In this document: positions 37,047-59,665 of the stretch, in pieces
How the letters are laid out: every line of letters starts with the position of its first letter
Position numbering within the stretch: the first letter of the stretch is position 1
Virus record (IMG/VR): IMGVR_UViG_3300040801_001810
Span: 1 to 64,000 of that record
Length of the DNA stretch: 64,000 bases
Strand: one strand, 5' to 3'
Origin: a virus
Program-made: the position numbers and the translations under genes
The notes under the pieces: model-generated
Seen by the model: the letters and a program-made list of their open reading frames with translations, nothing else
Database searches by the model: none
What the model was told of the DNA's origin: nothing

Positions 37047-37777
37047 CATGTATAAATAGAATACATTCAATTGGATGCGTTACACCAATAATATATAATA
37101 AGAAAAATAAAGAAAGCTTCCAAGAGATAATATATACATCACAACATCAGCTTGATTATGACGGTATAATGTTAAGAAAGAATTTCTTAGTACCACATGA
37201 TAATGCTAGATTTGCTGGAACCAATACTTATATAAATCCAGCAAAGTTATTAAATGTATCAGTTGGAAAATCTCTAATAATGGCATACGGGTTAGTTATT
37301 AACCCATATCATACTAAAGTTTTACCATTAGATATGGATGGGGTACAGTATTCAACAGTAAAGAAAACAGCAGAACGATTACTTAGTAATAATATGTGGG
37401 GAGTATATATTGATCAAATAGATATTGTAGATAGTTCGATTGGAAAAAACAACTATCACATATATATTTTGTTTAATGATTGGGTTAATGTCATTAGAAT
37501 GATAAAACTTATCCCTTTATTATGTACAGGATACAAACGATTTATAGCTGTGCGAGAAGAAATTGTAATAAGAACTTCACAGAAATTCTTTTTTGATAAA
37601 AGACGTAAAGAACAACCTGCACCAAAATATCTAGATATATATGAAAAAGAAGGAAATTCGATAAGGCAGTATTCAAACTTTAACTTTCCTGGAGGAGAGT
37701 TAAAAGATACGATAACTTTAAATACTAAAGATGAAGCACCAGAACCTAAAAAAAGGATATGTCTAAGACATGGCTAA
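37043..37777 (+). CDS. Hypothetical, possible AEP-primase-like protein
   Basis: 244 residues. VLPLDMDGVQ could be the hhhDhD metal motif and KNNYHIYILF the sxH motif of the archaeo-eukaryotic primase superfamily; the spacing (about 55 residues) is reasonable. No zinc finger or helicase partner, and the phage already has a DnaG-type primase. So this is only a candidate. ATGA overlap with the gene before. Confidence 0.4.
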   Translation: MTCINRIHSIGCVTPIIYNKKNKESFQEIIYTSQHQLDYDGIMLRKNFLVPHDNARFAGTNTYINPAKLLNVSVGKSLIMAYGLVINPYHTKVLPLDMDGVQYSTVKKTAERLLSNNMWGVYIDQIDIVDSSIGKNNYHIYILFNDWVNVIRMIKLIPLLCTGYKRFIAVREEIVIRTSQKFFFDKRRKEQPAPKYLDIYEKEGNSIRQYSNFNFPGGELKDTITLNTKDEAPEPKKRICLRHG

Positions 37778-38159
37778 AACAACAGCATCAAGAAAAGCTA
37801 AAGGTAGAAGACTACAGAATCATGTAGTTAAAGTATTACTAGAAAAGTTTCCAATGCTAACAGAATCAGATGTTAGAAGCACACCAATGGGATGCACAGG
37901 AGAAGACGTATGGTTAAGTGAAGCAGCCAGAGTAACATTTCCTTATGCAGTTGAAGCAAAGAACACAGAAAGATTAAATATTTGGGCAGCTTTGAAGCAA
38001 GCAGAAACAGAAAGAAAAGGAACTCCACTAGTAGTATTCTCAAAGAATCATGCAAAAATATATTGCGCAATGGAGTTTGATCATTTCATGGACTTAATAG
38101 AAGAACTAGAAGAACTAAGATTAAATAAAGACTTGGAGGAAATAAATGCAGAAAGTTAA
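37770..38159 (+). CDS. PD-(D/E)XK endonuclease-like protein
   Basis: 129 residues. Basic start (KAKGRRLQNHVVKVLLEKF), then SDVRSTPMGCTGEDVWLSEAAR (catalytic Asp candidate) and FPYAVEAKNTERLNIWAALKQAE with the E-x-K motif. This is the fold of Holliday junction resolvases and phage structure-specific nucleases. Inference: processes branched recombination intermediates. Confidence 0.68.
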   Translation: MAKTTASRKAKGRRLQNHVVKVLLEKFPMLTESDVRSTPMGCTGEDVWLSEAARVTFPYAVEAKNTERLNIWAALKQAETERKGTPLVVFSKNHAKIYCAMEFDHFMDLIEELEELRLNKDLEEINAES

Positions 38160-38718
38160 AGTAATAGGTTGTGGTGGAATTGGATCCTATTTTGCACAAC
38201 ATATAGAAAGACTTATTGACCTTAAACAGATTTCAGATATGAAATTCACATTCTATGATGACGACATAGTAGAACTAAAGAACATACTTTATCAGAATTT
38301 TGAGACAAGCGATATTGATTCTAATAAGACAGATGCATTGGCTACCAAGTTTTTTAATATAAATTTTGATACCAAGAGATTAGACCTTGAGGATCTTAAA
38401 GAAAGCGATTTAATAATTCTCTGTGCAGATAATAATAAAATTAGAAAAGAAGCTTGGGAAGCATGGACTAAATATAATATTAAATTTATTGACTCAAGAG
38501 CAAATGGAAGAGCAATTGGTATCTTTTCCAGCGACACTGAAAATTATATTAAAACAATTAGTGATAGCGACAAGCCATCTTCATGCCAGAATCCATTTCA
38601 AATAGCTAAGAAAGAAATTGAATATGGTAATGTAGTTATAGCGTCAGCCTTAGCACAAGTTGTATTAAATTACAGTAGATCAAAAAGGTTACCACCAGAC
38701 TTTATGATTAACCTATAG
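38146..38718 (+). CDS. E1/ThiF-like protein
   Basis: 190 residues. Rossmann motif VIGCGGIGS (6-14), then FYDDDIVELKNILYQNF matching the D-x-D-x-V-E-x-x-N-L-x-R-Q pattern that binds ATP-Mg in ThiF, MoeB and ubiquitin E1 enzymes (Arg is Tyr here), and SNKTDALA. It lacks a clear zinc-knuckle CxxC pair and an active-site cysteine loop, though SSCQNP offers one Cys. Known family role: adenylate the C-terminal Gly-Gly of ubiquitin-like carriers. See the GG-ending protein at 41105. Confidence 0.7.
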   Translation: MQKVKVIGCGGIGSYFAQHIERLIDLKQISDMKFTFYDDDIVELKNILYQNFETSDIDSNKTDALATKFFNINFDTKRLDLEDLKESDLIILCADNNKIRKEAWEAWTKYNIKFIDSRANGRAIGIFSSDTENYIKTISDSDKPSSCQNPFQIAKKEIEYGNVVIASALAQVVLNYSRSKRLPPDFMINL

Positions 38719-38729
38719 GAATAAGAATA

Positions 38730-41108
38730 ATGAAATCAAGACCAACAACGAAGACAACATATGATACAATGGGTTTAATAGATCATCTACTTGATATTAA
38801 ATTAGACTCTGATAGTTTCGCAACAAACGAAAAAATAATTGATAAAGTAAGCGATGTTATAGATCAAATCGCTAACGTAGAAGGATATTCACTACTATCT
38901 ATTACAAAAGACAATAATAGAAAACTAATACTGTTAGCATCATCAGGAAAAACTACCTCATGTTTTACTTGGTCTCTTAAAAATTCAATTGATACCAAAG
39001 TAGATGCAGAAATATATGAGACAAATTTAAAATCGAATTTATATGAAGTCTTACAACAAGATGGCTGGCATTCTTCTGAAGCATATGCCTCTGCATGTAT
39101 AGTAGAAACATTAAATGGTTATGCTGTCAATTTAAATCAGTTAGCTAAATTCAAAGATTTTAAACAGACAGACCCAATGAAGCATAGTTCTTTTATTGTA
39201 AGTCATTCAGAAATAGAACATAAAGATGTAGTATTACTAGGAAAAAGAACACTGAGAAAATTAAAAGAAGAAAAAATTAAAACAAAAGAAATTATAGAGA
39301 ACCATACCAATAAAGTATGTAAAGATATTCCATTTGTACTAAAAATTAATAATATATATCCGAAAGAAAAAGGATTTATCTCAGCTAAGATAACAGATGT
39401 ATGGGAAGTTGCTGGCGTAAGATGGTATAGAATGTCAGTCTTAAGATATGATAGTGAAGGTATAGGAACAGCCAATTACTTCCATGGATTCATAGTCGGT
39501 AAATCATCAGCAGGTGTAACTGGTGACGATATGAATGTCAAACAAATAGGTAATTCATATTGTTGTTTAAATTCAGCCAACAAATGGTCAGGTACTCCTG
39601 AGCATTATAAAATAGATAACCTAGAAAGAATTCCATTTAATTTAATTGATACAGGAAGATGTTTTCTTGGCTTTAGAACTGATACTTATGACTGGCATTT
39701 ATTGATTAGTTCAGATCCAATGGTAGATAAAAATTATCTTGAGACCTTTGAAAAAGACATAGATAAATTTCTATTACAACAAAGTCTTGATACTCTAGAT
39801 ATGGAAGAAACAGTAATTGAAAAATCTGATACAAATACATCCATGGAATTTGATTCGTATAAAGATAATCTTAAACAAGAAGAAAATGCTCCTACTGGAA
39901 GACAGTTAGTTCTTAAGACAATTAAAAAGATGGCTGATGAGTATAATTATATTGTTAAGAAAAATACATCTATTGGAGAAGATGTTACAGTTACAGACGC
40001 AATTAAGTATAATCATAATGAAGGTAAGATTATATATAATGACTTTAGTATTGCAGTTGATGATGAGTGGATGAAATCCAAGCTACACGAGATGTTTCAA
40101 CGATACTTGGTTGATTTCTATAGAGATAGTAAAACAGAACAACAAGTATTAGACGAAATTACTAATAACTTTTTTAGTAAACTCGAATCAAGATTAAAGA
40201 CTTTACATAGAGAACCAACATTAATACCATTAAAATTAAACGAAGCAATCGATGTTAGTCTAGAGATAAAAGTATCAACTACAAAAAAAGAAGGATTAGA
40301 TAATAAGAAACCTGGAGCAAGTTATTACTATTTAAATGGACAACGATTTAATAAAAACGAAATTATTATTGTACTAAAAGAAATGACTTGCTATAGAAAT
40401 CAAGAAGAAGCAAATAGTTTTATTAGAAATATAGGAAGACTAGGACTCTCTGTATACATAGGAATAACAACAGGTTATGAAATCTGTATGAATCCTAATG
40501 TTGAAGAAGAGGAAGATAAAATATATAGAATATTTAGATTCAAGAAACTAAAAGGTAGATCAAATTATCAATTAGTTTTAGATGGATCATACGTTCCTAT
40601 TAAAGGAAAGAAGCTAATTAATATTCTATATAATGACTTCATAGAAGAATATGTTCCTGGATTCGAAGAGAAAATACCAAAACTAATATTAGAAAGTAGC
40701 CAATCAGCTAAAGAATATATAAAATATAAGGTATTAATAGATTCTTCCTATAATTCTTTTAAAGAAAAAGCAAAAGAATTCCTTACCAGAAAAATAGATG
40801 AAGTAGGAGCTAAGGAAACTAAGTACTTTAATAGAAAAGCACGTAAGATATTAGATGCAATTGAGGTTGATGGAGCATCAAATAATAAGTATATTATAGC
40901 ATATGATACAAAGGATTCTTATGTATTCATTTCACCAGAATACGATGAAGAGAATGAATATTTTAAAGATGGAAAATACATATGTATGATAGATCAAAGT
41001 AATATCAAATCCAACATTAGCTACGACACAGTAGTAGCTAAGTTATTGGCACTTAAGAATGATTCAAGTATAGCACATACAATATATAATTTGGAGGAAG
41101 AACTATGA
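38730..41108 (+). CDS. Large hypothetical protein
   Basis: 792 residues, no recognisable domain. N-terminal third (1-330) is a mixed region with VVLLGKRTLRKL and YYFHGF-like strands, the centre (375-520) is helical and charged (DEITNNFFSKLESRLKTLH), the C-terminal third has beta-rich segments (ASYYYLNGQRFNKNEIIIVLKEM, NYQLVLDGSYVPI). No signal peptide or membrane helix. It lies between the E1-like gene and the GG-ending small protein, so it is a candidate partner. Codon use like neighbours. Confidence 0.6.
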   Translation: MKSRPTTKTTYDTMGLIDHLLDIKLDSDSFATNEKIIDKVSDVIDQIANVEGYSLLSITKDNNRKLILLASSGKTTSCFTWSLKNSIDTKVDAEIYETNLKSNLYEVLQQDGWHSSEAYASACIVETLNGYAVNLNQLAKFKDFKQTDPMKHSSFIVSHSEIEHKDVVLLGKRTLRKLKEEKIKTKEIIENHTNKVCKDIPFVLKINNIYPKEKGFISAKITDVWEVAGVRWYRMSVLRYDSEGIGTANYFHGFIVGKSSAGVTGDDMNVKQIGNSYCCLNSANKWSGTPEHYKIDNLERIPFNLIDTGRCFLGFRTDTYDWHLLISSDPMVDKNYLETFEKDIDKFLLQQSLDTLDMEETVIEKSDTNTSMEFDSYKDNLKQEENAPTGRQLVLKTIKKMADEYNYIVKKNTSIGEDVTVTDAIKYNHNEGKIIYNDFSIAVDDEWMKSKLHEMFQRYLVDFYRDSKTEQQVLDEITNNFFSKLESRLKTLHREPTLIPLKLNEAIDVSLEIKVSTTKKEGLDNKKPGASYYYLNGQRFNKNEIIIVLKEMTCYRNQEEANSFIRNIGRLGLSVYIGITTGYEICMNPNVEEEEDKIYRIFRFKKLKGRSNYQLVLDGSYVPIKGKKLINILYNDFIEEYVPGFEEKIPKLILESSQSAKEYIKYKVLIDSSYNSFKEKAKEFLTRKIDEVGAKETKYFNRKARKILDAIEVDGASNNKYIIAYDTKDSYVFISPEYDEENEYFKDGKYICMIDQSNIKSNISYDTVVAKLLALKNDSSIAHTIYNLEEEL

Positions 41109-41314
41109 TAAACATAGAAAGAACTACTGAAACAGGGTACTTACAGAAAGAATATGAAAAAGATGAAGCTCTTCAAGTTCTTAATACAGAACTGGAAAAT
41201 GACAGAACAATCTGGATCGATGGAAAATTATTCTCTGGAGAAATAATTACTAGTGATGACCTTGATACATGTAAAAAGGGAATCTGTGTAACTAATAAAC
41301 TAATTGGTGGATAA
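41105..41314 (+). CDS. Small protein ending in Gly-Gly
   Basis: 69 residues. Helical N-terminus (EKDEALQVLNTELENDR), strand TIWIDGKLFSG, then SDDLDTCKKGICVTNKLIGG. The Gly-Gly terminus and small alpha/beta size resemble ubiquitin-like carriers (ThiS, MoaD), and an E1-like gene is 2.4 kb upstream in the same operon. The fold order differs from ThiS, so this is inference only. Confidence 0.5.
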   Translation: MINIERTTETGYLQKEYEKDEALQVLNTELENDRTIWIDGKLFSGEIITSDDLDTCKKGICVTNKLIGG

Positions 41315-41315
41315 T

Positions 41316-41936
41316 ATGATTTTTAATCTAACAAGCGAAGGAAGTTTTAAAGTGCCATATAATGAGAAAGCTAATGCATGGAATGTAGATTTCGATGATA
41401 TCGTCTTATCAAATTCTATGAGAAGTTATTTTAAGGAAGAACTTAAATACAAAAAAGATACTATAAGTCAGACGGAAAGTATTATAAGTCCTAAGACTCC
41501 AGAATATATAGCTTTAAACAATGCTTGTAAGATGTCTATTGGTAATTCATTACGAGTATTAGTGGTTGATGAGAAAGACAAACTCAGAATACCGCTAATA
41601 CTCAAGTATAATATAAAAAATAAGTTAACTTTATTTAAAGATTATACAAGTAGACATATGATATCATCTATATTAAAGAATTGTATCATGGATTCAAAAG
41701 GATCTTTATCAGAAGGAATGCTAAGAGGCATGTACCTTATGTATTACTATTGGTTCTTCCGTAAAGATTCCATTAAAGAAATAACAAGTAATGTTTGTGT
41801 AGATATGGAGAATATGATATCATTAGTAATGGATAAAGCACAGACTTTATATCGATCATATGACACAGTGTCTGTTGTATATAAATTAAGAGAAAAGCTA
41901 TCATCAGAGAAGGTGATACTAGCAGGATCAATATGA
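41316..41936 (+). CDS. Hypothetical protein
   Basis: 206 residues from ATG 41316. Mixed N-terminal region (SLRVLVVDEKDKLRIPLILKYNIKN), helical C-terminus (MLRGMYLMYYYWFFRKD, DKAQTLYRSYDTVSVVYKLREKL). No motif recognised. Lies within the pre-polymerase part of the operon. Confidence 0.5.
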   Translation: MIFNLTSEGSFKVPYNEKANAWNVDFDDIVLSNSMRSYFKEELKYKKDTISQTESIISPKTPEYIALNNACKMSIGNSLRVLVVDEKDKLRIPLILKYNIKNKLTLFKDYTSRHMISSILKNCIMDSKGSLSEGMLRGMYLMYYYWFFRKDSIKEITSNVCVDMENMISLVMDKAQTLYRSYDTVSVVYKLREKLSSEKVILAGSI

Positions 41937-42307
41937 AATGGGTAGCAGTAGTTAGAGAAGAAAAATTAGTAATTAATAATTCAGAAATAGACTTTGATAC
42001 TTTTAGATTCCTAACTAGTAAGAATATAGACTTTAGTAAAAGAATAAATAAGAGAATAATAATTACTAAAGAAAATGGGCACATATATGTTAGTGATTTT
42101 AGCTTCATAAAAGGCGAGACATATACAATGAAGATGCCAAACTTTATGATTGGTGCAAAATCGGATAAAATAATTCATGTTTATAAATGTATTGAGATAG
42201 ACAAAGATGATAATGTTTTATTATCGCCAGTAACAGATTCATTTGGAACATTAAGTGTAGTAAATGATGCTCATAGTTGGTATATATATACAAAAGGAAA
42301 AAAATGA
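41933..42307 (+). CDS. Hypothetical protein
   Basis: 124 residues, beta rich (KWVAVVREEKLVINNSEIDF, HIYVSDFSFIKGETYTM). ATGA overlaps at both ends, so it is translated with its neighbours. May be a small partner of DNA polymerase by position. Confidence 0.5.
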   Translation: MKWVAVVREEKLVINNSEIDFDTFRFLTSKNIDFSKRINKRIIITKENGHIYVSDFSFIKGETYTMKMPNFMIGAKSDKIIHVYKCIEIDKDDNVLLSPVTDSFGTLSVVNDAHSWYIYTKGKK

Positions 42308-44739
42308 AGGTACCATTATCAGTATACTCGGCAGACGAGTATCTACTAATATATAGAAACGGCGGTATAGATAAAGCAGACTTTCCATTCAAACCATTCT
42401 TACTAATAGAATCAGAACACTTTCCATCTTCTCATTCATCTGAAATTTGGACAAAAGTTCCAGAGAATGAAGAAAGAAAATATAAAAGGATAGAGTTTAA
42501 TTCGCAGAAAGAGTTATTTGATTTTAAGAAAAGAAACTCTTCGCTATCTAAATATATAATGTCTAATCAGTATTTAGAACAGCTATATATATCACAAGAA
42601 GATTTCATGTTAAATTATCCTCATACAAATGATTTAACAATAATGTTCTTTGATATTGAGACTGCTACTTTTGGGGATGGTCTATTTTCTAAGCCGCTTA
42701 CCTGTCCAATTTTATGTATTGGTTACAGTATATGGAAGTATACAAACGATGGAAAGAAACATAAAGTACATCAAGAAATATGCAAAGGCTTTGATTTAGA
42801 AAATATGACAGATAAAGTCATTCTAGATAAATTCTTCGATGGAATACAAGAACATGATCCAGACATCATAGCTGGTTACTATAGCGAAGAATTCGATATG
42901 CCTTACATAGTAGAGAGAGCACAGATAGTTGGCTCTGATCTAAAGAAGATGTGTAGAGGAGGAAGAGAACCATCAATATCAGATAACAAAGGAAATAGAA
43001 AGATAAGACTTCCTGGAAGAATACACTTTGATATACTTACATCAAATTCAGGAGTAGTTAAAGATCAGACACTATTTGGTATTAAATCTAGGTCATTAAA
43101 AGAAATGGCTAGGTGGTATAAGATTAAAAGAACTATTAAAGAAGGCGACCAGTGGATAGAGAAACAATTAGACGACATAGAAATCAAAGAAGATATTGAG
43201 AATACTATAAATTTATTCAAAACGAATGTTGAAAGACTATATGCATACCAAGACGATGATGTATATAGAACAGAAGGAGTTGGTCACGTATATTTAAGAA
43301 ACTGTATTACACTAGCTGAGATGATGCATGTTCCTCTTGAAAATATTATTAATATGTATTCTAGTTTTGTACCAAAGCTGTTCGTAGCTAGACACATGGA
43401 AAAACTAAGATTAATTAATACTGAGACAAATTTTAATAAGTATAATATACAAAACGGATCTATCTCAGAAGTAGGAACAAAGTACGAAGGAGCTACAGTA
43501 GGATTATATAAGGACGGATATTTTGATGCAACATGGAAGCTTGACTTTGCCTCTCAGTATCCATCGTCTATTCAGACATGGAATCTTGGTCCAGATACTA
43601 CGTCGCTAGTTAGAGTCGAAGAATATACAGGAACTTATAATTGTATAGTTAAAGGAAACTATAACTGGTACAGAATTCCTACCAAGTTTGAGAAGGGTAA
43701 ATATGCCTATGACTTTATAGTCAAGGTACGAAATGATAAAGAAGGATTCCTTGCTAGAGAAATTAAACGACTTAAGGCAGAACGTAAAATAATTAAAGCT
43801 GAAATGAAAAAAGCAGATGATGAAACTAGGGCTACTCTTAACTCACAACAGAATGCTATTAAGGTAATCATGAACTCGATTTATGGATTCCTTGGTCTGA
43901 AGTCATCAGTATACGGAGAAATGACTAGTGCAGTAATGGTTACAGCTATGTGTCGATGGAGTATTCTAAAATGTATGCAACGTAATGTAGACTGTCTAGT
44001 AGAAACAGACACAGATGGAATAGTAGTCGATAAGTTCTTAGATGCAAAAGAAGAAAATGATTGGCTTGACGAACAAATTAGAAACAAGTTCCATGTCAAA
44101 GAAAATGCTATGGAATTAGAATTAGAAGGTAACGGAGAACGAGCATATTTTTACTTAATGAAAAACTATGTAATAGAAAATGAACCTGGTGATTTTAATA
44201 TACATGGTTCATCTCTTAAGGCATCTCGAGCAGCAAAGGTAATTGATAGAGCAGTTAACTTAGGTATTGAATATATATTTAATAACAAGTCTCCAGAAGA
44301 TGTAATCCTTGAAGCATTTAACTTTTCTAATCTAGAAATGGATGACTTTGTAGAAAGAGTAAAACTATCAAAAGATCCTTCTGCTTACGACGATCCATAT
44401 GATTATAGATTATTCTTAGCTAAGCAAGTAGAAGTTAAGACAGGACAGATTATTACTAAGGGTATACAGATGAGTTATGTGGTAACTAAAGATGAGTTAC
44501 CATATGAACAATTCAAACCTTATTATAAAGAAGGCAAAAATTATACGTTTGTTCAATTTGTAAATTCAAAAGAAGAATTAAATATGAGTTATTATAAAGA
44601 TCTTGTTGATAAGACTCTTATGAAGTTCGGATTATCAGAAAAGAAATGGATGCAAACGGATTTATTTTCAGCAGAAACAATAGATAAGAAACCAATAAAG
44701 TCTAAAGCTTTAGATATAGTACCTATGGAGGAACTATGA
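42304..44739 (+). CDS. Family B DNA polymerase
   Basis: 811 residues from ATG 42304. 3'-5' exonuclease: MFFDIETA (DIE at 117-119, Exo I), IIAGYYSEEFDMPY (Exo II, Asn replaced by Ser) and LYAYQDDDVY (Exo III). Polymerase: motif A DFASQYPSS beginning at Asp414, motif B KVIMNSIYGFLG, motif C VETDTDGIVV near 566-575 with Ser replaced by Gly. Known role: replicative copying. No TPR2 protein-primed insert; expected to work with the primase-helicase and SSB. No clamp or clamp-loader gene is in the window. Confidence 0.88.
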   Translation: MKVPLSVYSADEYLLIYRNGGIDKADFPFKPFLLIESEHFPSSHSSEIWTKVPENEERKYKRIEFNSQKELFDFKKRNSSLSKYIMSNQYLEQLYISQEDFMLNYPHTNDLTIMFFDIETATFGDGLFSKPLTCPILCIGYSIWKYTNDGKKHKVHQEICKGFDLENMTDKVILDKFFDGIQEHDPDIIAGYYSEEFDMPYIVERAQIVGSDLKKMCRGGREPSISDNKGNRKIRLPGRIHFDILTSNSGVVKDQTLFGIKSRSLKEMARWYKIKRTIKEGDQWIEKQLDDIEIKEDIENTINLFKTNVERLYAYQDDDVYRTEGVGHVYLRNCITLAEMMHVPLENIINMYSSFVPKLFVARHMEKLRLINTETNFNKYNIQNGSISEVGTKYEGATVGLYKDGYFDATWKLDFASQYPSSIQTWNLGPDTTSLVRVEEYTGTYNCIVKGNYNWYRIPTKFEKGKYAYDFIVKVRNDKEGFLAREIKRLKAERKIIKAEMKKADDETRATLNSQQNAIKVIMNSIYGFLGLKSSVYGEMTSAVMVTAMCRWSILKCMQRNVDCLVETDTDGIVVDKFLDAKEENDWLDEQIRNKFHVKENAMELELEGNGERAYFYLMKNYVIENEPGDFNIHGSSLKASRAAKVIDRAVNLGIEYIFNNKSPEDVILEAFNFSNLEMDDFVERVKLSKDPSAYDDPYDYRLFLAKQVEVKTGQIITKGIQMSYVVTKDELPYEQFKPYYKEGKNYTFVQFVNSKEELNMSYYKDLVDKTLMKFGLSEKKWMQTDLFSAETIDKKPIKSKALDIVPMEEL

Positions 44740-45704: not shown

Positions 45705-45902
45705 ATGCATTTAGCTATAACAGATATGAGGGCAGTACTACAAGCAAGAACAGCAGGAATGGTAAGTAAGAAAGCATCTGAAGATCCAACAGATATCTTG
45801 GCTGGAGTCGCAGATATTAGAACTGTACTTAATGAAATGGAAAATTACGCTAACAACTTAATAGTGGAGCGAGAAAAACTTGAACAAGAAACAAGTGTTT
45901 AA
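45705..45902 (+). CDS. Small helical protein
   Basis: 65 residues after TAGGAGAGAG. One long amphipathic helix pair (TDMRAVLQARTAGMV, ADIRTVLNEMENYANNLI). Not recognised. Overlaps the metallopeptidase start. Confidence 0.55.
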   Translation: MHLAITDMRAVLQARTAGMVSKKASEDPTDILAGVADIRTVLNEMENYANNLIVEREKLEQETSV

Positions 45903-46317
45903 CTTTGTCAAACAATTCATACCAAGCGATCAGTTTAATATAATATATGCATCTGATATTGTGTGTGAACATGGAGTAGCAGCTGTAGATGATGATAATA
46001 ATATCTACATCAATAAAGAATACTTTAATAAGTATGAAGATATTGAACAACGCTGCGTATTACTACATGAAATCGGACATCTAATATGCGAAGAAGTAAA
46101 ATCTCCAGCAGAAAATGAGTATCGAGCACATATGGTTGCAATAGATCTAGCTAAATCTATGAAATTAACTAAAGAAGTATTAGTATTAGATGATGCAATA
46201 AGAAACTGGCCAAACTATACTTGGAATGAGGACAAAGGCATTTGGAGAAGTCACATTAAAGCAGGAAGGAAATATATAAAACGATATGGAAACAGAAAAA
46301 AAAGATTATGCAAATAA
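45880..46317 (+). CDS. ImmA/IrrE-like zinc metallopeptidase
   Basis: 145 residues if read from TTG 45880 (GGAG 10 bases upstream; a GTG at 45895 is an alternative). The HEIGH motif in CVLLHEIGHLICEE plus a downstream Glu in NEYRAHMVAIDLA gives the gluzincin site. ImmA/IrrE proteins cleave repressors or regulators. Inference: may process a phage or host regulator; no matching repressor is seen next door. Confidence 0.65.
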   Translation: MNKKQVFNFVKQFIPSDQFNIIYASDIVCEHGVAAVDDDNNIYINKEYFNKYEDIEQRCVLLHEIGHLICEEVKSPAENEYRAHMVAIDLAKSMKLTKEVLVLDDAIRNWPNYTWNEDKGIWRSHIKAGRKYIKRYGNRKKRLCK

Positions 46318-58505: not shown

Positions 58506-59447
58506 GTGAACGTAATAGCTATCGTAACTCACGGAAGACCAGAACTATTAAAGATACACTGCGAACAGTTACTAAAGAATCCTGAGCTAGGAGATTATCT
58601 AGTTCACTTCTTTCCAGACTATGGATTTCATCCAGATGTAATGAAAGTTATTAAATGGTTTAGGTCAGAGCATAAGAATATCAAGATTACTATGAGATCA
58701 GAAGCTGATAGTAAGAAGTCTCCACTACCTGCCTTTTACAATATCTTCGATGCTTATCGTATCTGTGCTGAAGAAGCTGATGAATATGTTCTTCCTGCTG
58801 AAGAAGATATTGTTCCTACTAATGACTACTTACGATATCACAGAAAAGTATATGATAACTTTTTATCTAAATATGATAAAATATTTTGCGCTACTACTAA
58901 ACGTAGACAGCTAAATGAACAAATTGGTAATCCTGAATTACTAATAGGAGATATGCAAATATGTCAACCTACTATTGTGACATGCAAGGTGATAAAGACA
59001 ATCCTTATTCCTTTAATGGCTTCCAAGAACTTTTGGACTCCGTGGATATTCAATCAGGAGATGTATTCTACATATCGACATCCCCCTCAACATCACACGC
59101 ATCACGACGGCCAGTTAGAAAGAATAGCAGAAACGAACGGAATGTTCAGTCTGAAGCCAGACCAAGCAAGAAGCGCTCATATAGGCGTAGGTGGCCAGCA
59201 CTTCGATGGTAAGGTAGAAGGAAGAACATTAGAAGAAAAGGTAGAATATATGAAGTCTATAATGCATAATGGAGACGCACTAAGAGAAGCCTCTGATAAT
59301 CCTAAGGACATGTGTTCAGTTAAATTTGACAGTGACCCATGGAAAGAATTATATTTAGATATAGATAGAAATAAAGTCATAACCCAGTCAGCTGACTTTG
59401 ATCCTGAAAATAAATTTAAGGAGTACATACAATCATGCCAACATTAA
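58506..59447 (+). CDS. GT-A-like glycosyltransferase, GTG start
   Basis: 313 residues if started at GTG 58506, with AAAGG upstream and one base after the previous stop. VIAIVTHGRPELLKIHCEQLL is the N-terminal nucleotide-binding strand-helix, EEADEYVLPAEEDIVPTNDYL holds the acidic residue group (variant DXD), GDMQICQPTIVTC and WTPWIFNQEMY follow. His-rich stretch (HPPQHHTHHDGQ). Consistent with GT-A fold; donor unknown. Confidence 0.65.
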   Translation: MNVIAIVTHGRPELLKIHCEQLLKNPELGDYLVHFFPDYGFHPDVMKVIKWFRSEHKNIKITMRSEADSKKSPLPAFYNIFDAYRICAEEADEYVLPAEEDIVPTNDYLRYHRKVYDNFLSKYDKIFCATTKRRQLNEQIGNPELLIGDMQICQPTIVTCKVIKTILIPLMASKNFWTPWIFNQEMYSTYRHPPQHHTHHDGQLERIAETNGMFSLKPDQARSAHIGVGGQHFDGKVEGRTLEEKVEYMKSIMHNGDALREASDNPKDMCSVKFDSDPWKELYLDIDRNKVITQSADFDPENKFKEYIQSCQH

Positions 59448-59665
59448 AAGATGTAGCAGTAATACCAGAACAAAACAGAGACCAATTTAGAAAGTATCTA
59501 CAGATGTTATCTGCGTCAGAACCAGGCGTATCAATAACATTTTCTGTAGAATTATTTAGAAATGGACACAGAAGATTTGATTATACAGCGATATGTGATA
59601 CGCAAGAGATAGCGGTTAAAATTCAACAAAAAATTCGAGATGGAGAACTCGCTCATGGAGGTTGA
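59435..59665 (+). CDS. Small hypothetical protein
   Basis: 76 residues overlapping the previous gene. LKDVAVIPEQNRDQFRKYLQML and ITFSVELFRNGHRRFDYTAICDTQEIAVKIQQKI: helix, strands, helix. Ends AHGG. Not recognised. Confidence 0.5.
   Translation: MPTLKDVAVIPEQNRDQFRKYLQMLSASEPGVSITFSVELFRNGHRRFDYTAICDTQEIAVKIQQKIRDGELAHGG

Follow-up and report, generated by a model that had tools for sequence, protein, structure and literature searches.

A candidate minimal ubiquitin-like conjugation module beside the DNA polymerase gene of an uncultured phage

In 2006, bacterial operons were predicted that encode E1-like, E2-like, JAB and ubiquitin-like proteins together (PMC1779556), and ubiquitin-like conjugation of the Cap2 type, performed by bacteria, has been tied to anti-phage defence in the cyclic oligonucleotide-based anti-phage signalling system (CBASS) (PMC10097602). 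A survey of jumbo phages does not mention ThiF, ubiquitin-like or JAB systems (PMC7824862). The PRTRC system combines a ThiF-type E1, a JAB protein A, an E2-like protein B and a ubiquitin-like protein C (TIGR03736; Pfam Prok-JAB, Prok-E2_D and Prok_Ub). The window analysed here is the first 64 kb of the 230,193-base virus record IMGVR_UViG_3300040801_001810. At positions 38146-41314 it carries genes for an E1-like enzyme, a 792-residue protein and a 69-residue protein ending in IGG. These three genes form one tight operon, as a preliminary description of this DNA had proposed: all three open reading frames (ORFs) lie on the plus strand, the ATG of the 69-residue protein gene overlaps the TGA of the 792-residue protein gene (ATGA), and GGAGG ribosome sites precede the E1 gene and the 69-residue protein gene. 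The trio is read as a minimal, phage-encoded ubiquitin-like conjugation module that dispenses with a JAB protease, a reading about as likely as not to be correct.

Two other uncultured phage records, IMGVR_UViG_3300037461_000428 (locus L002) and IMGVR_UViG_3300037851_000284 (loci L024, L029 and L031), have these three genes in an identical order shortly before the gene for DNA polymerase B. Paired alignments gave one relative, and the third phage was located with a degenerate DNA pattern for CQNPFQIA. The identities to the window in the two relatives are 72% and 69% for the E1, 44% and 40% for the large protein, and 62% and 57% for the small protein. An 81-residue gene is inserted between the E1 and the large gene in one relative; in the other, inserted genes of 86 and 73 residues flank the large gene, one on each side. 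The trio is still together in both. Third codon positions are the most variable in every gene and in every pair of the three phages, showing that all three genes are under purifying selection. The association of the trio is beyond chance. Searches for related loci with the 69-residue or the 792-residue protein alone gave no match. A scan of a genome collection returned only an actinobacterial gene, which reads as an ordinary ThiF/MoeB-type enzyme, and among named phages the 69-residue protein has chance-level matches only.

The 69-residue protein ends in ICVTNKLIGG, and the tail CVTN[K/R]LIGG is found in all three phages. The tail is the best-conserved part of the protein, with C56, K57, K58, C61, V62, T63, N64, L66, I67, G68 and G69 invariant. 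It follows the pattern basic-Leu-X-Gly-Gly, which is also that of the ubiquitin tail RLRGG. A terminal GG occurs in only two of the 918 mechanically called ORFs of at least 40 residues in the 230-kb record; the other one (59435-59665) encodes 76 residues ending in AHGG. The AlphaFold2 model of the 69-residue protein, calculated from a two-sequence alignment, has a mean predicted local distance difference test (pLDDT) score of 82.5 and a predicted template modelling score (pTM) of 0.70. It consists of strands 2-8 and 11-17, helix 19-31, strands 34-38 and 41-43, a short helix 50-53, strand 62-66 and the tail, and the predicted fold is a beta-grasp. All of the 50 best matches listed by Foldseek against the PDB are ubiquitin, SUMO, NEDD8, FAT10, Get5 and other ubiquitin-like domains, or fusions and complexes with such domains. 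VIA-align gives Z values of up to 4.9 and, in one entry, superimposes residues 1-69 of the model onto residues 2-76 of ubiquitin with the last glycine at Gly76. The top matches in BFVD are again mostly viral ubiquitin-like proteins. The suggestion that the small protein might have a beta-grasp fold and a conserved terminal GG is thus in agreement with the model and with the three homologues; neither a different fold nor loss of the glycines was found. Prok_Ub (PF14454) has no match in the window's record. A Pup-like or microcin-like nature of the protein was rejected on account of its predicted folding and its length.

The E1-like protein begins at the nucleotide-binding motif GxGGxG, so that it has a minimal length, and keeps D38, D40, N46, Q50, K61, D95 and R100. 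By these motifs, the Rossmann GxGGxG together with the D, N, Q, K and D adenylation residues, it belongs to the ThiF/MoeB/UBA superfamily. Its best NCBIfam match is PRTRC_ThiF (1.4e-10; 40.9 bits against a cut-off of 144.75 bits), ahead of ThiF, and the PADLOC E1-E2 models match its first ~70 residues at up to 2.7e-7. The motifs were aligned with those of E. coli ThiF and MoeB and of E1s from other phages using two modes of MAFFT. The sequence SSC147QNPF lies before the last helix, and C147 is invariant in all three phages. In one of the two modes C147 falls on C184 of ThiF, C187 of MoeB and the cysteines of all the phage E1s in the set, making it the candidate catalytic cysteine. The E1 had been described as lacking an obvious catalytic cysteine loop, a statement that this candidate residue does not support.

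The 792-residue protein matches no family in Pfam or NCBIfam and no protein of the named phages. Its last ~124 residues are its most conserved part, being 67% and 63% identical between the phages, compared with 44% and 40% overall, and C752 (in GKYICM) is one of only two cysteines invariant across the protein in the three phages. In the AlphaFold2 model pLDDT is ~70-80 over most of residues 681-750, and the C-terminus is composed of a helix (672-692), four strands (695-734), C752 and another helix (764-776). The first helix is separated from the cysteine by 80 residues and the cysteine from the next helix by 12; in UBE2D2 the corresponding distances are ~83 residues from helix 1 to Cys85 and ~13 from Cys85 to the next helix. 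The model suggests that the C-terminus follows the E2 core in the order of its elements and comes close to it in their spacing. Structural neighbours of this segment include, weakly, chain P of the constitutive centromere-associated network (CCAN; Ctf19/CENP-P) and chains of Mediator subunits, with Z values of 4-5, and Csm1 ranks first among the Foldseek matches to the complete model. Ctf19/CENP-P and Csm1 are RWD-type folds of the E2-like superfamily. When compared by hhalign with five E2 sequences supplied by the analyst, C752 was placed on the catalytic cysteine, unprompted, a placement that is not significant by itself. The score was 17.7, versus 11.7 ± 2.4 for shuffled columns (2 of 300 shuffles reach 17.7), and was 8.7-13.0 for windows of the protein that do not span the whole C-terminal domain, which in this comparison gives the best E2-like match of the protein and the only one. 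Since recognised E2-like proteins of phages score no better against the same eukaryotic E2s, hhalign cannot settle the E2 question; aligning the candidate domain with those phage proteins gave no signal, which is uninformative because they also fail against eukaryotic E2s. A sequence-profile search with the candidate domain against the PDB and Pfam gave no useful match. The C-terminus may hide a divergent E2 domain with Cys752, for which the observations are suggestive, not proof. The earlier impression that no E2 is visible may not hold, given the E2/RWD-like features of this domain.

In the proposed mechanism, the 190-residue E1 would adenylate the C-terminal glycine of the 69-residue protein and take the protein up as a thioester on Cys147. 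The tag would then be passed to an acceptor cysteine of the 792-residue protein, most likely Cys752 in the divergent E2-like domain. The large N-terminal part of the 792-residue protein would select the target, which is probably a DNA-replication protein of the phage or its host, because the operon lies between the gene for the resolvase-like nuclease and that for DNA polymerase B. As the translation of the 69-residue protein already ends at GG, maturation would require no JAB protease, and the modification may be irreversible. The data directly show the genes, their operon and conservation, the E1 motifs and the GG tail; the beta-grasp fold is a computational prediction, and the thioester on C147, the E2 role of the large protein, conjugation and the target are inferred. 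No JAB had been noticed at the locus, and indeed Prok-JAB has no match in the three phage records; the same search is positive in crAss-like phages, Salmonella phage Arash and Bacillus phage KLEB27-3. The complete scheme, an apparently irreversible three-protein cascade in which an E1, a new E2-type domain and a GG tag, with ubiquitin-like and E2-bearing families unmatched in the libraries searched, mark DNA-replication proteins during infection, is put forward tentatively.

Several observations weigh against a conjugation module of this kind. The full-length model of the 792-residue protein is poor (pLDDT 45.5); fold matches of its N-terminal part (residues 52-114, Pur-alpha-like and others) were not trusted. 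The Z values of ~4-5 for the structural neighbours of the C-terminal segment are in a range in which the likeness may be a common arrangement, and most of the neighbours listed match a different region of the model. The E2 probability given by hhalign is only 1.4%. No canonical HPN or HxH motif precedes C752, where the alignment shows only an invariant Pro736, and no E2 family, including that of the E2-like PRTRC protein B (PF14460), has a match in the three records. Because of these two absences the 792-residue protein is not classified as an E2 and is proposed only to work like one. In the E1, Tyr49 takes the place of R70 of ThiF and R73 of MoeB (the arginine of N-L-x-R-Q), the N-terminal arginine-bearing segment is absent, and in the other MAFFT mode a gap offsets C147 from ThiF C184. 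The Foldseek matches of the 69-residue model are individually weak (best E-value 0.012, none below 0.001, template modelling score ~0.5), and all its VIA-align Z values are below 5. The target is proposed from genomic context, and the sample is three genomes.

The lack of a detected E2 family and the poor model of the large protein would also fit an E1 and a ubiquitin-like protein that work without an E2. The E1 would then transfer the tag directly, as with archaeal SAMP or Urm1, and the 792-residue protein, which always adjoins the E1 and tag pair, would be a dedicated substrate or a scaffold. This arrangement is possible but doubtful, given the E2-like signals at the C-terminus of the large protein and the E2-like middle protein possessed by phage analogues that have an E1 and a GG tag.

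The preliminary description left the choice between ubiquitin-like conjugation and a sulfur carrier open; conjugation is now favoured, and the sulfur carrier has become the less likely of the two. In a sulfur-carrier pathway the E1 would convert the small protein to a thiocarboxylate that donates sulfur to a tRNA, a nucleotide or a cofactor. ThiS and MoaD are likewise small, GG-ending beta-grasp proteins, ThiF and MoeB have the same motifs as the E1, and host enzymes could still supply the sulfur. However, the four zinc cysteines of ThiF and MoeB are absent from the E1, the nearest NCBIfam family is that of PRTRC and only then ThiF, and no thiolation enzyme is seen in the operon. Rhodanese (PF00581) and cysteine desulfurase (PF00266) families, both found in nearly all control genomes, have no match in the three phage records. 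A sulfur carrier is therefore unlikely. That the trio is a chance meeting of a stray ThiF-like adenylyltransferase with an unrelated short protein happening to end in GG, as the weak E-values of the fold match might allow, is very improbable in view of the synteny kept despite insertions, the invariant tail, the purifying selection, the uniformly ubiquitin-like fold matches and the rarity of GG-ending ORFs.

The features of the locus are listed in the table. The replication module runs from a UvrD-like helicase gene through a uracil-DNA glycosylase-like gene, the PDDEXK nuclease gene, the trio and two small conserved genes to the family B polymerase gene. The polymerase is less than 60% identical to every named phage record matched (best rows ~21-25%), so the phage lies outside any well-sampled lineage.

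Table. Positions of the trio and adjoining genes in the window
Feature	Position	Strand	Evidence or remark
Resolvase-like PDDEXK nuclease (Holliday-junction-resolvase-like), immediately upstream	37770..38159	+	PHROG 244 6e-18; syntenic in 3/3 phages
E1-like (ThiF fold) activating enzyme, 190 aa	38146..38718	+	Pfam ThiF 4.7e-13
792-aa protein, middle gene of trio	38730..41108	+	Kept at 44/40% in two relatives; no database family
Candidate divergent E2/RWD-like domain, residues 669-792 of 792-aa protein	40734..41105	+	Conservation, predicted topology, hhalign
69-aa ubiquitin-like protein, C-terminus as translated ...VTNKLIGG	41105..41314	+	AlphaFold2, Foldseek, invariant tail
Conserved gene of ~206 aa downstream of trio, without assigned function	41316..41936	+	Syntenic in 3/3 phages
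Conserved gene of 124 aa downstream of trio, without assigned function	41933..42307	+	Syntenic in 3/3 phages
DNA polymerase family B	42304..44739	+	Pfam DNA_pol_B 2.7e-25; marks replication module adjoining trio

A SprT-like metallopeptidase is encoded near the polymerase (45880-46317; Pfam 3.2e-5). In the L002 contig (G001, 61545-66164) the ORF of DNA polymerase B has 1539 residues, compared with ~810-820 in the other two phages, the extra length being an insertion and possibly an intein. Several small unrelated proteins of these phages share a tail of the approximate form R-x-[I/L]-[N/C/S]-L-R-x(0-3), immediately ahead of the following gene (3' ends at 37777 and 44954 in the window, 5328 and 6815 in L002, 3351 and 5838 in L029, and 911, 2840 and 3069 in L024). 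Several of these tails are an in-frame Shine-Dalgarno-like sequence (for example TTAAGGAG); the ICLR versions are not. In the third phage four neighbouring short proteins (L029, 12405-13596 and 10983-11327) share an N-terminal F[VI]SNSS after a basic start.

If the phage has a tag and an E1 of its own within its replication operon, phages too would be using ubiquitin-like chemistry for themselves. The set of three proteins is small enough to be reconstituted, and the question of which target is tagged is directly testable. The chemistry itself is of an already known kind. New are the reduced, JAB-less phage version, the small- and large-protein families that are unmatched in the libraries searched, and the fixed place beside the DNA polymerase.

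Among described systems, E. coli ThiF-ThiS and MoeB-MoaD share with the trio the adenylation motifs, a GG-ending beta-grasp partner and, in one alignment mode, the equivalent of Cys184/187. They differ in having the zinc cysteines and the N-terminal arginine segment, and no sulfurtransferase family is found in the phage records. The likeness to Cap2/Cap3 of type II CBASS and to E1-E2-JAB defence operons lies in the E1 match to the PADLOC models; unlike these, the trio has a separate E1, a dedicated ubiquitin-like protein and no JAB, and is encoded by the phage and not the host. The PRTRC system, to whose ThiF the E1 is closest in NCBIfam, also has a stand-alone small ubiquitin-like gene, and its phage versions lie within replication modules. 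However, the trio lacks a JAB, a recognisable E2_D and a Prok_Ub match, and its E1 falls well short of the PRTRC_ThiF cut-off.

Two groups of phages have comparable loci. In Xanthomonas and Erwinia jumbo phages (PhiXhv-12, PhiXhv-15 and Ep032; L004 1733-5612, L039 1736-5612 and L040 near 1703) a 141-residue protein ending in SGG is followed by an 892-residue protein, with an E2-like HPHM...HGSLCLG and cysteine-rich ends, and then by an E1. Prok-JAB has no match in PhiXhv-15. The GG-ending small protein, the large middle protein, the E1 and the lack of a Prok-JAB match are common to these phages and the trio, whereas the gene order is reversed and the middle protein of the jumbo phages has a clear HPHM...CLG motif. 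No direct link was found between the 792- and 892-residue proteins, which show no sequence similarity.

An apparently complete cassette of ubiquitin-like, E2-like, JAB and E1 genes is situated between DNA primase and uracil-DNA glycosylase genes in crAss-like phages (L003 1602-5654, L006 1394-5642, L035 1532-5663 and L036 1281-5648). The only annotations of these genes are hypothetical, 'metalloprotease', 'ThiF' or 'E1 enzyme family', and the library searched gave no relevant paper on crAss-like phages together with ubiquitin. The E2-like protein has the motif HSH...CxG, the JAB protein has HSHxxxxxFFSGTD, and the ubiquitin-like domain, which is putative and read from the sequence by the analyst, contains KKI[KR]SG internally, with an extension after it. 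The cassette and the trio have in common a place in the replication module, an E1 alike in fold and motifs, and a neighbourhood of uracil-DNA glycosylase and resolvase-like nuclease genes. They differ in that the crAss-like ubiquitin-like protein has an extension and is accompanied by a JAB, whereas the trio phages make the tag in its mature form and gave no JAB match. A mature GG tag without a JAB is consistent with both groups, the extension being accompanied by a JAB in crAss-like phages and the SGG end by the lack of a Prok-JAB match in the jumbo phages. The module is best read as a reduced relative of the fuller crAss-like cassettes.

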